A stretch of DNA of 64,000 bases, from NCBI RefSeq assembly GCF_022678645.1, contig NZ_JALBWV010000003.1, positions 1 to 64,000 of the forward strand, in the 5' to 3' direction. The translations under genes were made by a program, and so were the position numbers. The notes under the pieces were generated by a model. That model was not told the DNA's origin and did no database searches. It saw only the letters and a program-made list of their open reading frames with translations. Position 1 is the stretch's first letter. Every line of letters starts with the position of its first letter. Below, in pieces: positions 15,471 to 53,000 of this stretch. Source of the DNA: Saccharopolyspora soli (GTDB lineage Bacteria; Actinomycetota; Actinomycetes; Mycobacteriales; Pseudonocardiaceae).

Positions 15471-15517
15471 GTGAGGGGCACCCGTGACCAAGTAACTGGG
15501 TCACGGGTGCCCCTCAC
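15471..15517. repeat. Palindromic repeat, GTGAGGGGCACC family, copy 1
   Basis: Perfect 19-bp arms GTGAGGGGCACCCGTGACC (15471-15489) and GGTCACGGGTGCCCCTCAC (15499-15517) flank the loop AAGTAACTG. The loop is the reverse complement of the loop in the copies at 27620 and 52952. It lies downstream of the PfkB gene and upstream of the histidine-kinase gene and could end the PfkB transcript. Confidence 0.8.
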
Positions 15518-21322: not shown

Positions 21323-21370
21323 GGTCGTGAGTGCCCAACCGGGCTCCAACCCGGTTGCGCACTCACGACC
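21323..21370. repeat. Palindromic repeat, GGTCGTGAGTGC family, copy 1
   Basis: Arms of 21 bp, GGTCGTGAGTGCCCAACCGGG (21323-21343) and its complement (21350-21370), have one mismatch and a six-base loop CTCCAA. It fills the whole gap between the convergent SDR and LLM genes, and its right end touches the LLM stop codon. It could act as a bidirectional terminator. A second full copy is at 27559-27606 and a half copy at 27709-27734. Confidence 0.8.
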
Positions 21371-22512
21371 TATGCGGCTTCCCAAGCTTTGGCGAGGAGT
21401 TCGTAGGAGCGGACTCGGTCGGCGTGGTCGTGGGTGATCGTGGTGATCACGAGTTCGTCGGCATCCGTGGCGTCGCGCAGCGTCGTCAGCTTGCGCACCA
21501 CGGCCTCCGGGGTGCCGACGAATTGCGTGTCGACCCGGTCGGCGACGATTTCGCGTGCCTGGTCGGTCCAGTCGAATTCGGCGGCTTCCGCCGGGCTGGG
21601 GAACCGGATCGCGCCGTCGCCAGCGCGGATGCTGTGCACCCACGGCGCGTAGGGCGCGGCCAGTTCGCGGGCCTTCGCGTCGGTGTCGGCGACCACCACG
21701 TCCGCCGACACCACCACGTACGGCCGCTCCAGCCTGGCGGAGGCGGTGAAGTCCTGCCGGTAGGCGGCCACCGCTTCGAGCACCGTGGACGGGCTGACGT
21801 GGTAGTTCGCCGCGAACGGCAGGCCCAGCGAGCCCGCGGTGGCCGAGCTCTCCCCGGCGCTGGAGCCGAGGATCCAGACGTCGAGGTCGGCGCCCTCAGC
21901 GGGCACGGCTTGTACGGATCTGCCGCTGGCGGTCCGGAAATCGCCGCGGATGAACCGGATGACGTGCTCCACCTGGCTGCGGTAATCCAGGGTCGATTCG
22001 CCGCGCTCGCCGACCCTGAGCAGGTGTTGCTGCTCCTCGATGCGGGTCAGGAAGCTCTTCGACTTGGCCAGCGCGCGGGGTTTGGGCGGGATCAGCAGTC
22101 CGTCGACCACTTTCGATTCGGGTGCCGGACCGTCACCGGGATCGACGAACCGGCGCACTATGTCGCGGGCCCGGCCGGGCCCGGACCGGCCCAGCCCGAG
22201 GTCGATGCGGCCGGGGTGCAGCTGCGCGATCGTGCCGAACTGCTCGGCGACCACCAGCGGCGCGTGCTGGCCCAGCAGCACGGCGGCGGAGCCCACCCGG
22301 ATCCGGCTGGTCGCGCCGGCGACCAGCGCGATCAGCACCGCCGGTGCCGCCGAGGCGACGCCCGGCGTCAGGTGGTGCTCGGCCACCCAGTACCGGTGGT
22401 AGCCGAGGTGTTCGGTTCGCTGCGCGAGGTCGATGGTGTTGCGCAGGGCGTCGGCCGCGGTGCCTGTGGACACGATGGGCGACAGGTCGAGGATCGACAG
22501 CGGTGTGGGCAT
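21370..22512 (-). CDS. LLM-class flavin-dependent oxidoreductase (MsnO8-like)
   Basis: 380 residues of the bacterial luciferase-like fold. It opens with LSILDLSPI and carries [11 protein letters not shown] and [22 protein letters not shown], typical of the MsnO8/YhbW branch of FMNH2- or F420-using enzymes. ATG 22512 has GGAGGT eight bases upstream; GTG/ATG alternatives upstream are less likely. It is the last gene of a same-strand run with two NtaA/SnaA-type monooxygenases and a sulfonate-type binding protein, so it may help release sulfur from an organosulfur compound. Confidence 0.8.
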
Positions 22513-22537
22513 CAGCGCGACCTCCAAGCTGGCCTGG

Positions 22538-23905
22538 TCATGACGCGGTTCTCGTGCTGCGCCGGGGGTTTTGCAGCGGTGCCAGCCCGAGGTTGTCGCG
22601 CAGCGTGGAGCCGGGGTATTCGGTGCGGTACACGCCGCGTTCCTGCAGCAGCGGTACCACGGTGTCGGCGAACTCGTCGAGACCGCCGGGAGTCAGGTGC
22701 GGGACGAGGATGAAGCCGTCGGCGGCGTCTTCCTGCACGAACCGGTTCATCGTCTCGGCCACGGTCGCCGGGCTGCCGATGAACGACTGCCGTGCTGTCA
22801 CCTCGATGATCAGTTCGCGGATGGACAGCTTCTTGGCTTCGGCCAGTTCCCGCCACTGCCGGGCGGTGTCGAGCGGATCTCGGAAGCGGCGGGTGCTCGC
22901 CCGGCCCTTGGTGATGGTGTCGGTGCCGACCTGGGGGTCGAAGGCGGGCAGCGGCCCGTCCGGGTCGAACTCGCTGAGATCGCGGTTCCACAGCTGTTCC
23001 AGGAAGCGGATGGCGGTCTGCGGGCTGACCTGCTGGTGCCGGATGTGGTCGGCGCGTTCCTGGGCCTCCGCGTCGGTGTCGCCGAGCACGACGGAAGTTC
23101 CCGGGAACACCAGCAGTTCGTCGCGCGACCGGCCGTGCCGGGCGAGTCGGCCCTTGACGTCGGCGTAGAAGTCCTTGCCCGCCTGGAAGGTGGCGTGCCC
23201 GGTGAAGATCGCGTCGGCGGATGAGGCGGCGAATTCGCGACCCGCGTCGGAATCACCGGCCTGGAAGATCACCGGTCGGCCCTGCGGGCTGCGCGGCACG
23301 TTGAACCGACCCGCGATGTCGAAGTGCGAGTCGTGGTGCTCGAAGCTGCCCGCTAGCGGATCGGTGAGGAAGGTTCCGGTGGCCTTGTCGGCGACGATCT
23401 CATCGCCGTGCCACGAGTCGAAGAGTTCCTGCGCGGTGCGCAGGAACAGTTGGGCGCGCTCGTAGCGCTGGTCCTCGGGCAGGAAGCCGCCGCGCCGGAA
23501 GTTCTCCCCGGTGAACGCATCCCACGAGGTGACCACGTTCCAGGCCGCCCGGCCGCCGGAGAGGTGGTCGAGGCTGGCGAACTGCCGGGCCACTTCGTAG
23601 GGCTCGTTGAACGTCGAGTTGATCGTGCCCGCCAGTCCGAGGTGCTCGGTGACCGCGGCCAGCCCGGCCAGCACGGTGAACGTGTCCGGGCGGCCCACCA
23701 CGTCCAGGTCGTAGATCTGCCCGGCGTGCTCCCGCAATCGCAATCCTTCGGCGAGGAACAGGAAATCGAACTTCGCGCGTTCGGCGGTGCTGGCCATGTG
23801 CTGGAACGAGGAGAACTCGATCTGGCTCAGCGAAGCCGGATCGCTCCACACCGTGGTGTTGTTCACGCCCGGGAAGTGCGCGGCCAGATGAATCTGCTTG
23901 CTCAC
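22538..23905 (-). CDS. NtaA/SnaA/DszA-family FMN-dependent monooxygenase
   Basis: 455 residues. [68 protein letters not shown] and [17 protein letters not shown] are hallmarks of the NtaA/SnaA/DszA branch of luciferase-like monooxygenases, which use FMNH2 from a separate reductase. GTG 23905 overlaps the stop of the upstream paralogue. Family members cleave C-S or C-N bonds (dibenzothiophene sulfone, sulfonates, nitrilotriacetate). Its place after a sulfonate-type binding protein points to sulfur scavenging. No flavin reductase gene is present. Confidence 0.85.
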
Positions 23906-25065
23906 TGGTGTCCTCCGGCGGTGACGGCGTAGCGGCTGGCGGGACGCGGCAGGCCGAACCGCTCGCGCAGCGTGTGGGCTTCGTAGGCGGTGCGGAACAC
24001 CCCGCGCCGCTGGAACTCCGGGACGAGGTCTCGGGTGATCGCGGTCAGGTCGTGCGCAATGGTGCCGGGCCGCAACCGGAATCCGGTCAGACCGGCCTCG
24101 GCCCAGGACAGCAGCCGGTCGGCGAGTTCGGCTGCGGTCCCGGTGAACACCGGTGCGTCCGAGGTGTACTCGGCGCCGTCGAGCTCGTCCAGCCGGGCCT
24201 TCCGGTCGGCCGCGTGCTCGCCGAGGAACACGACGAGGTCGCCGAAGACGTGCAGGGTGTCCGCCGCCCGCCTGGCGTCCAGTTGCTCGGCGCGGATGCG
24301 GCTTTCGATGATCCGCGCTTGTTCGGCGTCGTGCGGGGTGATGAACGCGATGTCGGCGGAGCCTGCCACGAACCGGTGCCCGGCGGAGTCGGTGGCCAGG
24401 GCGGTCACCAGCGGTTGCCCCTGCGGCGGTCGAGGCGTGATGGACGGTCCCTTGACGTTGAACCACTTCCCGGCGAAATCGATGTAGTGCAGCTTGTCGC
24501 GGTCGATGAACCGGCCGGTCGCGACATCGCGGATCTCCGCGTCGTCGTCCCAGCTGTCCCACAACCGCCGCACCACTTCGACGTAGTCGGCCGCTTCGTC
24601 GAAGAGCTCAGCCGCGTGCACGTCACGGCGGCCGAAGTGCGCGGCATCGCTGCGGCGGCCGGACACCTGCGCCTGCCACCCGGCCCGGCCCGTGCTGATG
24701 TAGTCGAGGCTGGCGACGGCTTTCGAGACGTGGAACGGCTCGGTGTGGGTGACCACCGCGCTGGGCACCAGGCCGATGTGCTCGGTGCGGGGCGCGACGC
24801 GGGCGGCGATCAGCCCCGCGTCGAGTCGGCCGCGCACCTGGTCGGTCCGGTCGTCCGGTCCGTCCGCCCGGCTGGACTGCGGCCCGAGCGCGTCTTCGAA
24901 GGTGACGAAGTCGAGCAGCCCGCGTTCGGCCTCCTGCACCAGATCGACCCAGTACCCGGCGGTGAACAGTTCGCCGGGCCGCGCGTCTTCGGCCCGCCAT
25001 GCGGCGGGATGCCAACCGGCGCCGTCCAGCGCCACCGCGAGGTGCAACTTCTGCTGTGCTGCCAT
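23902..25065 (-). CDS. LLM-class flavin-dependent monooxygenase (NtaA/SnaA-related)
   Basis: 387 residues. KLHLAVALDGAGWHPAAWR, ERGLLDFVTFEDALG, VVTHTEPFHVSKAVASLDYI and SGRRSDAAHFG place it near the previous gene but in a shorter subfamily. ATG 25065 follows GGAAGGA closely. Its end overlaps the next gene start by four bases, so the two are coupled. It is probably a second specificity in the same organosulfur pathway; the substrate is not known. Confidence 0.82.
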   Translation of the reverse strand: MAAQQKLHLAVALDGAGWHPAAWRAEDARPGELFTAGYWVDLVQEAERGLLDFVTFEDALGPQSSRADGPDDRTDQVRGRLDAGLIAARVAPRTEHIGLVPSAVVTHTEPFHVSKAVASLDYISTGRAGWQAQVSGRRSDAAHFGRRDVHAAELFDEAADYVEVVRRLWDSWDDDAEIRDVATGRFIDRDKLHYIDFAGKWFNVKGPSITPRPPQGQPLVTALATDSAGHRFVAGSADIAFITPHDAEQARIIESRIRAEQLDARRAADTLHVFGDLVVFLGEHAADRKARLDELDGAEYTSDAPVFTGTAAELADRLLSWAEAGLTGFRLRPGTIAHDLTAITRDLVPEFQRRGVFRTAYEAHTLRERFGLPRPASRYAVTAGGHQ

Positions 25066-25122
25066 GGGCAGGTCCTTCCGGCCAGCGGTGGGCACTGGGA
25101 CGGCGGTGTCCACAGTGTTGGG

Positions 25123-26088
25123 TCAAGCCAACGATCGTTCGAACAGCGGGTCGACGTTGACCTCCTGCGGGAGGAAACCGGCCCGGCGGTAGTCCGCGGC
25201 CACCGCTTGCAGTGCCGCGACAACGGAATCGTCGATCGGGACGGCGGTGAACGGGCTGCGGTTCTGGATCAGTTCGGACGCCGCCGGGGAGATCCCGGTG
25301 TTCTCGGCGTAGATCTTCGCGTAGGCGTCGCGATTGGCGTTGGTCCAATCCCACGCCTGCTTGTAGCGGCCCACCAGGTCGGCCAGCGCCGCGCGCTTCG
25401 CCTGGTCTTCGAGCGCTTCTTCGGCCGCGACGAGGTAGGTGTGCCCAGCGCTCAACCCCTCGGCGGTGGTGAGCACCCTGGCACCGCTGACCTGCGCGGC
25501 AGCGGTGTAGGGATCCCAGGTCGACCAAGCCGTGATGTTGCCGCTTTCGAACGCGGTGCGCGCTTCGGTCGGCTGGAGGAAGTTGAAGGTCACCGAATCC
25601 GGCGCGAGTCGATCGCGTTCCAGCGCCTTGAGCACGAGGTAGTGGCCGATGCTGCCGCGCGTGGTCGGGCTGATCGACTTGCCGCGGAGGTCCGTGACGC
25701 TGGCCACCGGGGAGTTCGCGGGCACCAGGATCGCGGTGCCGGTCGGATTGCGGTGCAGCACCCCGATGACCTTGATCGGGGCCTTGGCGGCGAATGCGGT
25801 CAAGGTCGGCGCGTCACCGGCGATCCCGACGTCGCAGGCGCCCGCCCGGATCGCTTCCAGGAGGGGCTGCGCGGCGGGGAAGTCCGACCACTGCACCTGG
25901 TACGACGTCCCGTTCAGCGCCTGCGACGCGGTGAGCTGGGACCGGTAGCCGCCGTTCTGGTCGGCGACCCGCAGGTTCGCGGGCTGCCCGGTCTGTTCGG
26001 AGGCGCCTGGCGCGCAGGCCAGCAAGGGGAGTGCGGATGCCGCGAGCAGGCCACCGCGGAGAACTTGCCTGCGGGACAGCGTGGTCAT
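25123..26088 (-). CDS. Sulfonate-type ABC substrate-binding lipoprotein (SsuA-like)
   Basis: 321 residues. The signal has a twin-arginine motif (SRRQVLRGG) and a lipobox LLAC with Cys25, so it is probably Tat-exported and lipidated. The mature domain resembles SsuA/TauA/NrtA proteins: FPAAQPLLEAIRAGACDVGIAGDAP, then FNFLQPTEARTAFESGNITAWSTWDPY. It should bind aliphatic sulfonates or a related anion. No permease or ATPase gene is present in the operon, so it must borrow a transporter from elsewhere. It is the first full gene after a short leader ORF and an attenuator-like hairpin. Confidence 0.83.
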   Translation of the reverse strand: MTTLSRRQVLRGGLLAASALPLLACAPGASEQTGQPANLRVADQNGGYRSQLTASQALNGTSYQVQWSDFPAAQPLLEAIRAGACDVGIAGDAPTLTAFAAKAPIKVIGVLHRNPTGTAILVPANSPVASVTDLRGKSISPTTRGSIGHYLVLKALERDRLAPDSVTFNFLQPTEARTAFESGNITAWSTWDPYTAAAQVSGARVLTTAEGLSAGHTYLVAAEEALEDQAKRAALADLVGRYKQAWDWTNANRDAYAKIYAENTGISPAASELIQNRSPFTAVPIDDSVVAALQAVAADYRRAGFLPQEVNVDPLFERSLA

Positions 26089-26132
26089 GTGGTTCGGGTG
26101 CTCCTAGTTCGGAAAAAGTGCGCACGTGGAAC

Positions 26133-26179
26133 AAAAACGGCACGGCCGGGTGAGAGGAACGATTCGGCGAACGGTGCCG
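26133..26179 (-). terminator. Attenuator-like hairpins with a T tract between leader and SBP gene
   Basis: Read on the minus strand, CGGC-CGT-GCCG is followed at once by TTTTT (26148-26133). The GTGCCG half can also pair with CGGCAC further upstream (minus strand 26179-26174), giving two exclusive folds. It lies between the leader ORF stop (26192) and the SBP start (26088), the usual place for a Rho-independent attenuator. U-tract terminators are uncommon in this GC-rich window. Confidence 0.55.
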
Positions 26180-26191
26180 GACTGCGTATGC

Positions 26192-26272
26192 TCAGCGCCG
26201 CGGACAGGCGGCGGCGATGACCCGGAGGAGGTCGACGTGGTCCCTGGTGACCAACTGCACCGACTGAGCCAT
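26192..26272 (-). CDS. Short leader peptide of a sulfur-acquisition operon (cysteine attenuator type)
   Basis: A 26-residue ORF from ATG 26272. Its core LVTRDHVDLLRVIAAACPRR matches the short 'putative leader peptide' family (consensus near SRRHVDLLRVxxxLC) found before sulfate, sulfonate and cysteine genes in actinobacteria. Polycysteine or Cys-ending leaders of this kind act as cysteine-responsive attenuators in mycobacteria. A Cys codon sits near the 3' end, followed by Pro-Arg-Arg and the stop. No Shine-Dalgarno site is visible before the ATG, consistent with a leaderless transcript. The downstream SBP starts 103 bases later, with a hairpin plus T tract between. Confidence 0.72.
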   Translation of the reverse strand: MAQSVQLVTRDHVDLLRVIAAACPRR

Positions 26273-26349
26273 GACTAGCACGCTAGAAGCGCTACCAGCG
26301 AGCGTCAACGGATCACCGCGGCTGCCCACGATGTGGGCGCGCCGTCGGA

Positions 26350-27360
26350 TCAGCGCAGCGAGATCGTTGCCGGGCCCGCGGGTAGCACTCGGCCGATCAC
26401 CGGTGCGCCGGGAACTTCGCCGACCACGAGCAGCCCACCAGAAGTTTGCGCGTCGGCGAGCAGCAGCAGGTCTTCCTCCGACGCCAAGCCGGGATCGAGG
26501 TGGTCGCGGACCCAGGCGAGGTTCCGACGGGTTCCGCCGCTGACGAAGCCCGCGCGCACCGCATCCCGCGCGCCGTCGAGGTACGGCACGGCGGCGATGT
26601 CGATCTCGGCGGCGGCGCCGGACGCGCGCATCGTCTTGAACAGGTGGCCGAGCAGGCCGAACCCGGTGACGTCGGTGGCGCACACCGCGCCCGCCCGCAA
26701 GGCCGCCAGCGCCGCGTCGTGGTTGAGCGTCGTCATCGCCTCGATCGCCTGCTCGAAGCGCTGCCCGGTGCTCTTGTGCCGGGTGTTGAGCACGCCGATG
26801 CCCAGCGGTTTCGTCAGTGACAGCGGTAGTCCCGGCTGCGCGGTGTCGTTGCGCAGCAGCCGATCCGGATCGACCAGCCCGGTGACCGCCAGGCCGTACT
26901 TGGGTTCGGGGTCGTCGACGCTGTGCCCACCGCCGACGTGGCAACCCGCCAGCGCGGCGACGTCGAGGCCACCGCGAAGCACCTCGGCGGCCAGTTCGAA
27001 CGGCAGCACGTCGCGCGGCCAGCCGAGCAGGTTGACCGCGAGGATCGGAACGCCGCCCATCGCGTACACATCGGACAGCGCGTTCGTGGCGGCGATGCGG
27101 CCCCAGTCGTAGGGATCATCCACCACGGGGGTGAAGAAATCCGTGGTGGCGACGATTCCCGGTCCGCCATCGGCGCGCACCACGGCCGCGTCGTCGCCGG
27201 TGTCCAAGCCCACGAGCAGCTCAGCGTTCGGCCGCGCGATGGCGGCGGCCAGCCCGTCGACGACGGATTCCAGCTCGCCGGGCGGAATCTTGCAGGCACA
27301 CCCGCCGCCGTGCGCGTACTGGGTCAGACGAATCGATTCGGACCCGGCCATGCCCTGCAT
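26350..27360 (-). CDS. selD: Selenide, water dikinase (selenophosphate synthetase)
   Basis: 336 residues. The N-terminus carries GGGCACKIPPGEL, the SelD active-site motif with Cys and Lys; the active-site residue is Cys, not selenocysteine. Further motifs are VGLDTGDDAAVV (ATP/Mg binding), ATTDFFTPVVDDPYDWG, GGVPILAVNLLGWP and CATDVTGFGLLGHL. It makes selenophosphate from selenide and ATP for tRNA-Sec charging. The tRNA-Sec gene lies about 50 bases upstream on the same strand. ATG 27360 is the likely start; ATG 27351 is in frame. Confidence 0.92.
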   Translation of the reverse strand: MQGMAGSESIRLTQYAHGGGCACKIPPGELESVVDGLAAAIARPNAELLVGLDTGDDAAVVRADGGPGIVATTDFFTPVVDDPYDWGRIAATNALSDVYAMGGVPILAVNLLGWPRDVLPFELAAEVLRGGLDVAALAGCHVGGGHSVDDPEPKYGLAVTGLVDPDRLLRNDTAQPGLPLSLTKPLGIGVLNTRHKSTGQRFEQAIEAMTTLNHDAALAALRAGAVCATDVTGFGLLGHLFKTMRASGAAAEIDIAAVPYLDGARDAVRAGFVSGGTRRNLAWVRDHLDPGLASEEDLLLLADAQTSGGLLVVGEVPGAPVIGRVLPAGPATISLR

Positions 27361-27408
27361 TACAGCACCGCGACCCCGCTGCGGCAGGGGAGCCGGGTGC
27401 TGGTCCAG

Positions 27409-27501
27409 CGGAGACGGACGGGAATCGAACCCGCCGCACCGAGGTGCTCGGTGCCATCGGCTTTGAAGGCCGTGGGGGCCACCAGGCGCCCAAACGTCTC
27501 C
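27409..27501 (-). tRNA. selC: tRNA-Sec (anticodon UCA)
   Basis: The minus strand from 27501 folds as a long tRNA of about 92-93 bases. The acceptor 5' arm GGAGACG pairs with CGTCTCC before the discriminator. The anticodon loop CTTCAAA (anticodon TCA) is closed by CGGC/GCCG. A long variable arm GCACCGAG-CAC-CTCGGTGC and a T arm with GGTTCGATTCC follow. Length, UCA anticodon and extended variable arm are the marks of selenocysteine tRNA. CCA is not encoded. It sits just upstream of selD; selA and selB are not in the window. Confidence 0.93.
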
Positions 27502-27558
27502 GACGACCACTCTAGTTCCGACCAAACCGAGGCACGCGACGACGAGCACCCGACGGCT

Positions 27559-27606
27559 GGTCGTGAGTGCGCAACCGGGCTCCAGCCCGGCTATCCACTC
27601 ACGACC
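27559..27606. repeat. Palindromic repeat, GGTCGTGAGTGC family, copy 2
   Basis: GGTCGTGAGTGCGCAACCGGG (27559-27579), loop CTCCAG, and CCCGGCTATCCACTCACGACC (27586-27606) match copy 1 at 21323-21370. A third, half copy (CTCCAGCCCGGTTGTGCACT onward) lies at 27709-27734. The 396-base gap between tRNA-Sec and the LysR gene at 27898 holds these and the 27620 palindrome, with no gene. Confidence 0.78.
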
Positions 27607-27619
27607 CCAGGCGGGTGAG

Positions 27620-27670
27620 GAGTGAAGGGCACCTTTTACCCAGTTACTTGGTAGGAGGTGCCCTTCACTC
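27620..27670. repeat. Palindromic repeat, GTGAGGGGCACC family, copy 2
   Basis: Arms GAGTGAAGGGCACCT (27620-27634) and AGGTGCCCTTCACTC (27656-27670) are perfect over 15 bp. Inside them ACC-CAGTTACTT-GGT repeats the loop of the 52952 copy exactly. Arm bases differ from the other copies, but the differences are matched on both sides, so pairing is kept. It lies in the gap between tRNA-Sec and the divergent LysR gene. Confidence 0.75.
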
Positions 27671-27708
27671 CGTTCCCGTCACGCTGTGGTGCCACAAGAT
27701 GCGGTTCG

Positions 27709-27734
27709 CTCCAGCCCGGTTGTGCACTCACGAC
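27709..27734. repeat. Half copy of the GGTCGTGAGTGC palindrome
   Basis: CTCCAGCCCGGTTGTGCACT followed by CACGAC reproduces only the loop and right arm of the family seen at 21323 and 27559. The left arm is missing, so it cannot form the long hairpin. Confidence 0.6.
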
Positions 27735-27897
27735 TGCTTGCGGGCCGCATGGCAAGTGGTGTTTCGCGTGCGGGGCTCTGATTCCCTTGGGGAATCACGG
27801 CGGATGGCAAGATGTCATGGCGGAAACAGCGGCGTGAACGTAATTTCGCACGTGCGATCACGTCGCACCGGCAACGGGGCCCGGAGAGGGGCAGGCA

Positions 27898-28836
27898 ATG
27901 GAGCTACGTCATCTTCGCTATTTCGTGTCGGTTGCCGAAGAACTCCACTTCCGCCGGGCGGCGGAGAAGCTGCACATCGTGCAACCCGCGTTGAGCAAGC
28001 AGATCACCGCATTGGAGCGGGAACTGGGCATCGAGCTGTTGCAACGGGACCGGCGGCACGTCGCCCTGACCGAGGCCGGGGAGAGCTTCCTCCAGGAAGC
28101 GATCGAGATCCTCGCGCACACCAACGGCGCGATGCAGCGGGCGCAAGCGATCAGCCGGGGCGAGGTGGGGCGGCTGAACATCGGGTTCATCCACCCCGCA
28201 CTGGCGGACCTGCTGCCCCGCTCGCTGCGCCGGTTCCGGCAGCACTATCCCGCGGTCAAGATCACCTTGAGCGAGGCCACCAGCCGGGCCGCGATCGAAA
28301 AGGTCGCCAGCAGGAGCATGCATTTCGCCTTCACCCGGCTGCCCGTCGCCGAGCGGCCCGACCTGTTGACGGAACCGGTCTCCGAGGAACCGGTGCTGCT
28401 GGTCGTGCCCCGCGGGCATCGCCTGGCGACGGCCGCCACCGTGATGTTGGGCGACCTGGCCGACGAGGACCTGATCTTCGTCGCCAGGCAGGTCGAGCCG
28501 GAGTTGCACGACTACTACGTCACCACCTGCGTGAACGCCGGATTCAGCCCGCGACTGGCTCAGGAGGTCAACAGCACGTCGGTGGCCATCGGCCTGACCG
28601 CCGCCGGGCTCGGCATCACCTTCGCGCCCGCGTCGGCCAGGATCACGGCGCAGCGCAACGTGGTCTACCGCGACATCACGGGCCCGGCACCGACGCTGAC
28701 GATGGGCGCGCTTTACCACGCGGGACGCAAACCGGCGATCCTGGAGAATTTCCTGGCCCTGCGTCCCTGGGAACCAGCGGCGCCCGGCTCGGCCACCGGC
28801 GCGACGGGGCGCTTGCCGGAAGTTGGTTGCCGTTGA
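27898..28836 (+). CDS. LysR-family transcriptional regulator (BenM/CatM-like)
   Basis: 312 residues, ATG 27898 with GAGAGGGG upstream. The HTH (MELRHLRYFVSVAEELHFRR, then QPALSKQITALERELGIELL) is of the group that often controls aromatic-acid catabolism. The effector domain includes NIGFIHPALADLLP. Its stop is ten bases from the convergent stop of an aromatic-acid MFS porter gene. Together with the flavin monooxygenase at 30532, this suggests a locus for an aromatic acid, though the LysR targets are not proven. Confidence 0.85.
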   Translation: MELRHLRYFVSVAEELHFRRAAEKLHIVQPALSKQITALERELGIELLQRDRRHVALTEAGESFLQEAIEILAHTNGAMQRAQAISRGEVGRLNIGFIHPALADLLPRSLRRFRQHYPAVKITLSEATSRAAIEKVASRSMHFAFTRLPVAERPDLLTEPVSEEPVLLVVPRGHRLATAATVMLGDLADEDLIFVARQVEPELHDYYVTTCVNAGFSPRLAQEVNSTSVAIGLTAAGLGITFAPASARITAQRNVVYRDITGPAPTLTMGALYHAGRKPAILENFLALRPWEPAAPGSATGATGRLPEVGCR

Positions 28837-52951: not shown

Positions 52952-53000
52952 GGTGAGGGGCACCTGTGACCCAGTTACTTGGTCACAGGTGCCCCTCACC
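52952..53000. repeat. Palindromic repeat, GTGAGGGGCACC family, copy 3
   Basis: Perfect 20-bp arms GGTGAGGGGCACCTGTGACC (52952-52971) and GGTCACAGGTGCCCCTCACC (52981-53000) with loop CAGTTACTT. It starts eight bases after the acyl-CoA dehydrogenase stop and could terminate that transcript. Confidence 0.82.

Follow-up and report, generated by a model that had tools for sequence, protein, structure and literature searches.

A putative leaderless, cysteine-sensing leader peptide ahead of an organosulfur monooxygenase operon in Saccharopolyspora soli

In a window of 64,000 nucleotides from Saccharopolyspora soli (contig NZ_JALBWV010000003.1, positions 1 to 64,000), we found a 26-codon open reading frame on the minus strand (26192..26272, MAQSVQLVTRDHVDLLRVIAAACPRR) that is likely to be a leaderless leader peptide sensing charged tRNA-Cys and raising downstream expression on cysteine shortage. 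As a prediction from comparative sequence analysis, cysteine-responsive attenuation at this locus is well supported. A ribosome would start on the 5′-terminal AUG of a leaderless transcript and, when cysteine is short, would wait at the single UGU codon (26206-26204), probably held in part by the core R..HVDLLR of the growing chain inside the exit tunnel. The footprint of the waiting ribosome would reach the leader stop, and expression of a binding protein and monooxygenases would rise, which together would release sulfur from organosulfur compounds. We infer the transcription start, the stall and the direction of the stall. For the output step, we give an even chance to opening of the downstream translation start, a distinctly smaller one to protection from Rho and a slight one to an intrinsic terminator, with other routes making up the rest. 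The mechanism is favored by leader relatives that precede the homologous gene, by those ahead of the same cassette elsewhere and by sulfur-type genes behind similar leaders in the same genome. Against it stand the one Cys codon in place of a run, scores below cut-off, and modelled stalling that leaves access to the Shine-Dalgarno (SD) sequence at 0.22 to 0.23.

The leader ORF runs from ATG 26272-26270 to TGA 26194-26192 and is followed by a gap of 103 nt before an SsuA-family gene. On reading the sequence upstream of the ATG we saw no SD sequence. Instead, a -35-like hexamer TTGACG (26303..26308, minus strand) lies 17 nt 5′ of a -10-like hexamer TAGCGT of the form TANNNT (26280..26285, minus strand), which in turn lies 7 nt 5′ of the leader ATG, the spacing expected of a leaderless transcript. 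This TTGACG-N17-TAGCGT-N7-ATG arrangement agrees with the E. coli consensus at 8/12 positions and falls below the threshold of the promoter scan, which listed nothing. Across the leader family, TANNNT was found 5-8 nt 5′ of a possible start in 51/143 leaders versus 70/7913 ATG/GTG codons at the same loci, the chance level being somewhat higher for leaders because each has several start candidates. The transcript is probably leaderless, as the first-pass annotation had suggested from the missing SD, and the ORF that it described, of 26 residues with VTRDHVDLLRV and ending in AAACPRR, is indeed present on the minus strand. Upstream and on the same strand, the leader is adjoined by selD (26350-27549, minus strand) and tRNA-Sec (27408-27501, minus strand); as listed, the selD ORF runs into the tRNA, which is why its true start probably lies further in. 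An Rfam search of 25000-28500 returned no known cis-regulatory family at the leader, its matches being tRNA-Sec and chance hits with sub-gathering scores. Chance Rfam matches also arise from a 47-nt palindromic repeat, GTGAGGGGCACC...GGTGCCCCTCAC, present at 15471-15517, 27622-27668 and 52953-52999.

Codon alignment of the family places the conserved core R(-4) D H V D(0) L L R(+3) at 26222..26245 (minus strand), and family comparison places the sensor codon, a TGT for Cys at +9 from the core Asp with C as the next base, at 26204..26206 (minus strand). The window peptide thus contains the core R..[HYA][VI]DL.RV with Cys 9 residues past the Asp (TRDHVDLLRVIAAAC, D to C = 9); it has one TGT and no consecutive Cys codons. 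Profile searches gave 19.6 bits against NF042936 (cut-off 45, E 5e-4) and 18.8 bits against NF042934 (cut-off 27, E 9e-4). Since both scores are below the NCBIfam cut-offs, we call the peptide a divergent relative and not a member by NCBI's rule. In a search of the whole genome with NF042934 it ranked 16th of 31 matches with E 0.086, so that, taken alone, it would not stand out. What makes this ORF convincing is its context, namely relatives at the same place in 6/29 related loci. The family assignment made in the first-pass annotation therefore stands as a resemblance backed by those loci, with a window copy that is weak by itself; the NCBI families do resemble the leader, and peptides of this kind do precede sulfur genes in actinobacteria.

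The gene that follows the leader encodes an SsuA-family (TIGR01728) substrate-binding protein (25123..26088, minus strand; 184.3 bits, cut-off 163.5), with an AGGAG SD sequence (26101..26105, minus strand) 12 nt before its ATG. Behind it on the minus strand lie three luciferase-like monooxygenases. The first (23902..25113) is nearest to the NtaA/DmoA family TIGR03860, at 274.5 bits just under the cut-off of 279.7; the second (22538..23905), whose GTG start overlaps the stop of the first, scores above the cut-off of TIGR03860; and the third (21370..22527) scores above that of the MsnO8 family TIGR03558. The content claimed earlier, a binding protein plus three flavin monooxygenases, was thereby confirmed.

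We compared related binding-protein loci in other genomes and found a clear leader relative ahead of the homologous gene in 6 of 29, whereas the same expression detected no leader in the remaining 23. All six come from one genus (g46), read MP[QH]RPMLTTR[DGE]HVDLSRV...C and lie 88 to 137 nt 5′ of the homologous start; the one such peptide scored reached 32.3 bits, above the NF042934 cut-off. A leader together with the same cassette was found in G392, from another order of the same class and a family that we take for streptomycetes (monooxygenases 1, 2 and 3 at 67, 74 and 54% identity), and in G338 (64, 73 and 55%). In G371 a leader and monooxygenases 1 and 2 were found, the third not being found within the stretch fetched. 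None of these three cassettes has a binding protein between leader and monooxygenases. At E 0.01, NF042934 matched in 22/22 genomes of the genus, with 4 to 16 matches each and 14 in the window's own genome. Family matches were present in 97/100 genomes of the bacterial family and in 0/14 control genomes at those thresholds; phylum-wide they were present in 19/296 genomes, with fewer candidates per genome scored. With the threshold relaxed to E 10, the window's genome yields 31 matches, of which 6 exceed the cut-off; controls match at that level too, in 10/14 cases, so weak matches carry little meaning by themselves.

Besides the window leader, we read 16 further candidates in the same genome. 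The genes behind them encode a nitrite/sulfite reductase-type protein, DUF4395 followed by a rhodanese-like ORF, a dicarboxylate-type symporter, MFS transporters, TauE, a second SsuA, a cysteine dioxygenase-type cupin, two FMN reductases, a luciferase-like monooxygenase, an ABC permease, NMT1-type and family-5 binding proteins and a DNA-binding regulator domain; for one candidate, the downstream gene had no family match. One family member counts against the proposed mechanism, as it precedes a cysteine dioxygenase-like gene, an odd target if a lack of cysteine is what induces the family. At L007:1492-1563, the leader ahead of such a gene contains four Cys codons. Two observations on the distribution of leaders may be added. 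In G338 (G338:C1:1338000-1377800), six leader-like ORFs form a sulfur island of about 21 kb, with core matches in L187 at 16588 and 17877 (both minus) and in L188 at 8136, 10274, 14030 (all minus) and 17409 (plus). In L009 and L010, on different contigs of the window's genome, leader and gap are near-identical and the sequence diverges past the gap.

Codon usage at the sensor position was analyzed in 143 non-redundant leaders, which remained from 158 after 15 duplicates with identical codons were dropped; L016-L018 (weak matches) and L096 and L175 (no leader parsed) had been removed before counting. A Cys lies exactly 9 codons past the core Asp in 138/143 leaders, and the codon counts exclude the other 5. 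The core and the Cys are built into the family model, so the search accounts for part of the conservation seen at single positions, and, as the model ends with Cys, leaders without a +9 Cys are under-sampled; synonymous variation and codon choice are free of this bias. At +9 we counted 115 UGU and 23 UGC, compared with 18 UGU and 183 UGC among the 201 Cys codons of the downstream genes (Fisher P 1e-46, a value that overstates independence because the leaders are related by descent). Counting each lineage and distinct core once, we obtained UGU 71, UGC 7 and no Cys codon 4, of 82, for the first sample. Other Cys positions within the leaders use UGC over UGU at 24/3 (+2), 29/9 (+5 to +8), 8/4 (+10) and 20/9 (later). 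Of the 27 leaders carrying Cys at +2 as well as at +9, 23 have UGC then UGU and 2 have the reverse order.

A second sample consisted of 27 new loci from 100 genomes of other genera. The peptide motif RRY[VI]DL, tried as a marker of sulfite reductase leaders, was given up as a way of splitting the family, for UGU was then found in 115/118 of the first sample and in only 15/25 of the second. Split by downstream gene, a division chosen after the second sample was seen, leaders of genes other than sulfite reductase have UGU in 107/110 and 12/14 cases (119/124 together), and leaders of sulfite reductase have UGC in 20/28 and 10/13 (30/41 together). The base after the sensor codon is likewise biased, being a pyrimidine (C/T) in 131/138 leaders versus 74/201 after Cys codons of downstream genes, and in 24/27 leaders of the second sample. 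The residue that follows varies (R 71, P 24, C 12, L 11, stop 9 and a few others), the first base being what is common; Arg there is CGN in 71/71, while Arg at -4 is AGG in 15/143. UGU is decoded by wobble, and a 3′ pyrimidine weakens decoding. The counts for codon and following base suggest that a UGU-pyrimidine sensor codon is under selection across the leader family. Our searches of open-licence papers turned up no account of the UGU rule or of selection on the core.

The core itself is, judged by its substitution pattern, selected as a peptide. In 84 leaders from 10 ortholog groups, pN/pS was 0.086 for codons -4 to +4, 0.69 for the linker at +5 to +8 and 0.54 for -9 to -5, and Arg -4 is written with five codons, AGG among them. 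A separate branch of leaders, located by way of the gene behind them, precedes a GST-like gene, found in 17/150 genomes of the G392 family at 18 places, whose product matches glutathione transferases by phmmer (best E 4e-9) and has no Pfam match. At 17/18 of these loci (L189:10021-10060 (+), L190:9376 (+), L187:17877 (-) and L191-L207) we found a leader of the form T-R-R-[LR]-H-I-D-[LF]. UGU is at +9 in 0/17 of these leaders; UGC stands at +5 in 11 and at +8 in some, and 3/17 have no Cys at all and a stop codon exactly at +9, such as the Cys-less peptide MPRNGLTRRLHIDLLRVSSAY, which ends in the stop. In this branch pN/pS was 0.14 for -5 to +4 versus 1.02 past the stop. The search expression fixed -4, -1, 0, +1 and +3 (and HID too in a later filter); at the 5 positions left free in it, pN/pS was 0.22 over the 17 UGU-less leaders. 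Within 460 nt the same expression matched at 17/18 GST-like loci and at 0/18 on the opposite strand; it also matched at 4/23 binding-protein loci that have no leader, and those four are not leader-like. The GST-branch leaders do not have the -10 spacing and so may not be leaderless. Because the core survives without a Cys codon and is selected at the amino-acid level, it probably serves a function by itself, and since it is kept without UGU (17/17) and three times without Cys, the peptide may act within the ribosome while still nascent. The first-pass annotation, which took VTRDHVDLLRV as a family label, is for these reasons incomplete.

How a waiting ribosome would raise expression admits several answers. 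The one that survives best, though we hold it to be somewhat short of probable, is translation attenuation of the kind described by Canestrari, in which leader RNA sequesters the SD of the binding-protein gene unless a ribosome stalled at the Cys codon prevents that pairing. Such attenuation is reported for the cysteine operons and leaders of M. smegmatis (Canestrari 2020, as cited in PMC13236596 and PMC9031893). The consensus fold of 5 Streptomyces-like cysA2-type leaders has the SD paired to the tail of the leader directly after UGU, and the folds of 119 leaders with their UTRs were somewhat more stable than those of shuffles (mean z -0.85, with z under -2 in 21%). Modelled stalling raised SD access from 0.273 to 0.302 over 120 leaders (P 0.02), with gains above 0.1 in 23 and losses above 0.1 in 10. 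However, the effect was not better than that of a ribosome at the stop (P 0.12), and complementarity of a leader's own SD beside UGU, compared with swapped SDs, was not significant over 58 collapsed cores (z -1.2 at best). At the window locus, SD access was essentially unchanged by stalling, the stretch folds no better than its own shuffles (z +0.65; +1.03), and in the ensemble fold the SD pairs with nearby UTR bases and not with the leader. In these folding models, then, the stalled ribosome left SD access in the window as it was and raised it weakly on average. The mutually exclusive pairings claimed in the first-pass annotation are not confirmed by the same folds.

A second answer, which we think rather less probable, is Rho-dependent attenuation as in tnaC, where a C-rich gap would load Rho unless the waiting ribosome covers its start. 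Past the stop codon of the leader, the excess of C over G per base has a mean of 0.152 over 124 leaders and is 0.151 in the window, compared with 0.070 in 23 leader-free upstream regions of related genes (P 0.0014), but this control set is small and of one gene type, and composition predicts Rho sites weakly. Rho was proposed for mycobacterial cys leaders by Seliverstov 2005, a prediction that its own authors call weak.

The evidence on core and codon can also be read together, in a form that we regard as doubtful. The leaders would then be arrest peptides with TnaC-like tunnel geometry, in which the exit tunnel reads the core R..H[VI]DL.R and UGU-pyrimidine takes the A-site place that a stop has in TnaC. 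UGU-pyrimidine would be kept slow, by its wobble codon and 3′ pyrimidine, so that a single Cys codon suffices, and the codon would set the threshold, UGC in most sulfite reductase leaders and UGU elsewhere. Cys-less members, one kind with a stop at +9, would sense another signal of sulfur status, perhaps a small molecule bound together with the peptide.

It is unlikely that UGU is kept for RNA folding alone, with the codon held in a hairpin loop and not selected for its decoding. The window does have a local hairpin with TGT in a 6-nt loop (26196..26213, minus strand; arms 26213-26208 / 26201-26196), also present in the minimum-energy fold. When leader halves were swapped among 73 distinct cores, codon-spanning pairs dropped from 7.36 to 6.74 (sd 0.22) and the unpaired state of the codon from 0.74 to 0.68 (sd 0.03). 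Beside a near-fixed UGU codon these effects are small; the real leaders do not fold locally any better than the swapped ones (z +1.2), and replacing U by C would make the fold more stable by a mean of 0.28 kcal/mol (97 leaders). From the half-swap and U-to-C tests, RNA folding is a small part of the cause of UGU at most.

The first-pass annotation placed the output in GC hairpins ending in five T, that is, in intrinsic-terminator attenuation, which we consider improbable. A terminator-like hairpin is present at 26133..26179 (minus strand), with a 6-bp outer stem (arms 26179-26174 / 26143-26138, -12.9 kcal/mol), a 30-nt loop and T5 at 26137-26133, and a 6-bp stem with T5 arises in 1.2% of 3000 UTR shuffles, by a test defined after the hairpin was seen. 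The terminator scan lists nothing there because the loop is too long. T5 in the gap between leader and gene was found in 0/6 closest relatives and in 7/143 family leaders, the window leader included, and the folding models found no competing anti-terminator fold in the window. An intrinsic terminator was therefore rejected as the general mechanism. Hairpin and T5 exist as described, but they are not conserved, and with modelled stalling freeing no SD here, their part in the mechanism is not supported; what holds of the attenuation claimed earlier is, by comparison, a putative Cys-sensing leader before a sulfonate-type operon. That the ORF is a chance frame, the binding protein being made from an ordinary 5′ UTR, would agree with its non-significant whole-genome score, but is very improbable given the agreement in core, spacing, UGU-C, place and leaderless promoter spacing, and given the relatives that precede the homologous gene at 6 loci.

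If the proposed mechanism is true, hungry-codon attenuation and arrest peptides, which are usually kept apart, would be joined in one leader family that serves many operons per genome, and the sensitivity of each operon would be set by one synonymous codon. With the window locus, an organosulfur monooxygenase operon would join the cysteine-controlled set.

Among known systems, attenuators with an intrinsic terminator are marked by a conserved terminator with a competing anti-terminator, a combination that the scans and folds did not show here. The uORFC-8-2 motif before cysS of Rhodobacterales (PMC8632094) is likewise a candidate for ribosome-mediated attenuation at Cys codons; it differs from the window leader in its two tandem Cys codons, mostly UGC, and its intrinsic terminator. 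As in TnaC-type leaders, the core of the leader family is selected as amino acids, at the pN/pS given above. TnaC requires W12, D16, I19 and P24 (PMC8429421 and PMC10941005). When the sensor codon occupies the A site, residue +8 of the leader family is in the P site, and R(-4), D(0) and R(+3) are 12, 8 and 5 residues before it, the same distances at which W12, D16 and I19 stand before P24 in those sources. The family has R for W and R for I, carries a Cys codon in the A site where TnaC has a stop, and is not known to bind a ligand. We treat this match as a coincidence of three spacings and one common Asp, noticed post hoc, and thus as a lead and not as homology. Further sources are PMC1262725, PMC4633059, PMC9094748 and PMC8079986. 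NF042934 (cis_reg_atten, 'putative leader peptide') and NF042936 (leader_Ms4527A) have in common with the window leader the core, the position before sulfur genes, the short length and the C-terminal Cys, and differ in that the window leader scores below both cut-offs.

The polycysteine leaderless short ORFs of mycobacteria, ascribed to Canestrari, are said to sense cysteine. The window leader resembles them (Canestrari 2020) in being probably leaderless, in its putative Cys sensing and in its place before sulfur or cysteine genes, here an SsuA-family protein and monooxygenases. The window leader differs in having a single Cys codon and no run and in showing no SD release on modelled stalling, and its family differs in that the identity of the codon and of the base next to it appears to be selected.
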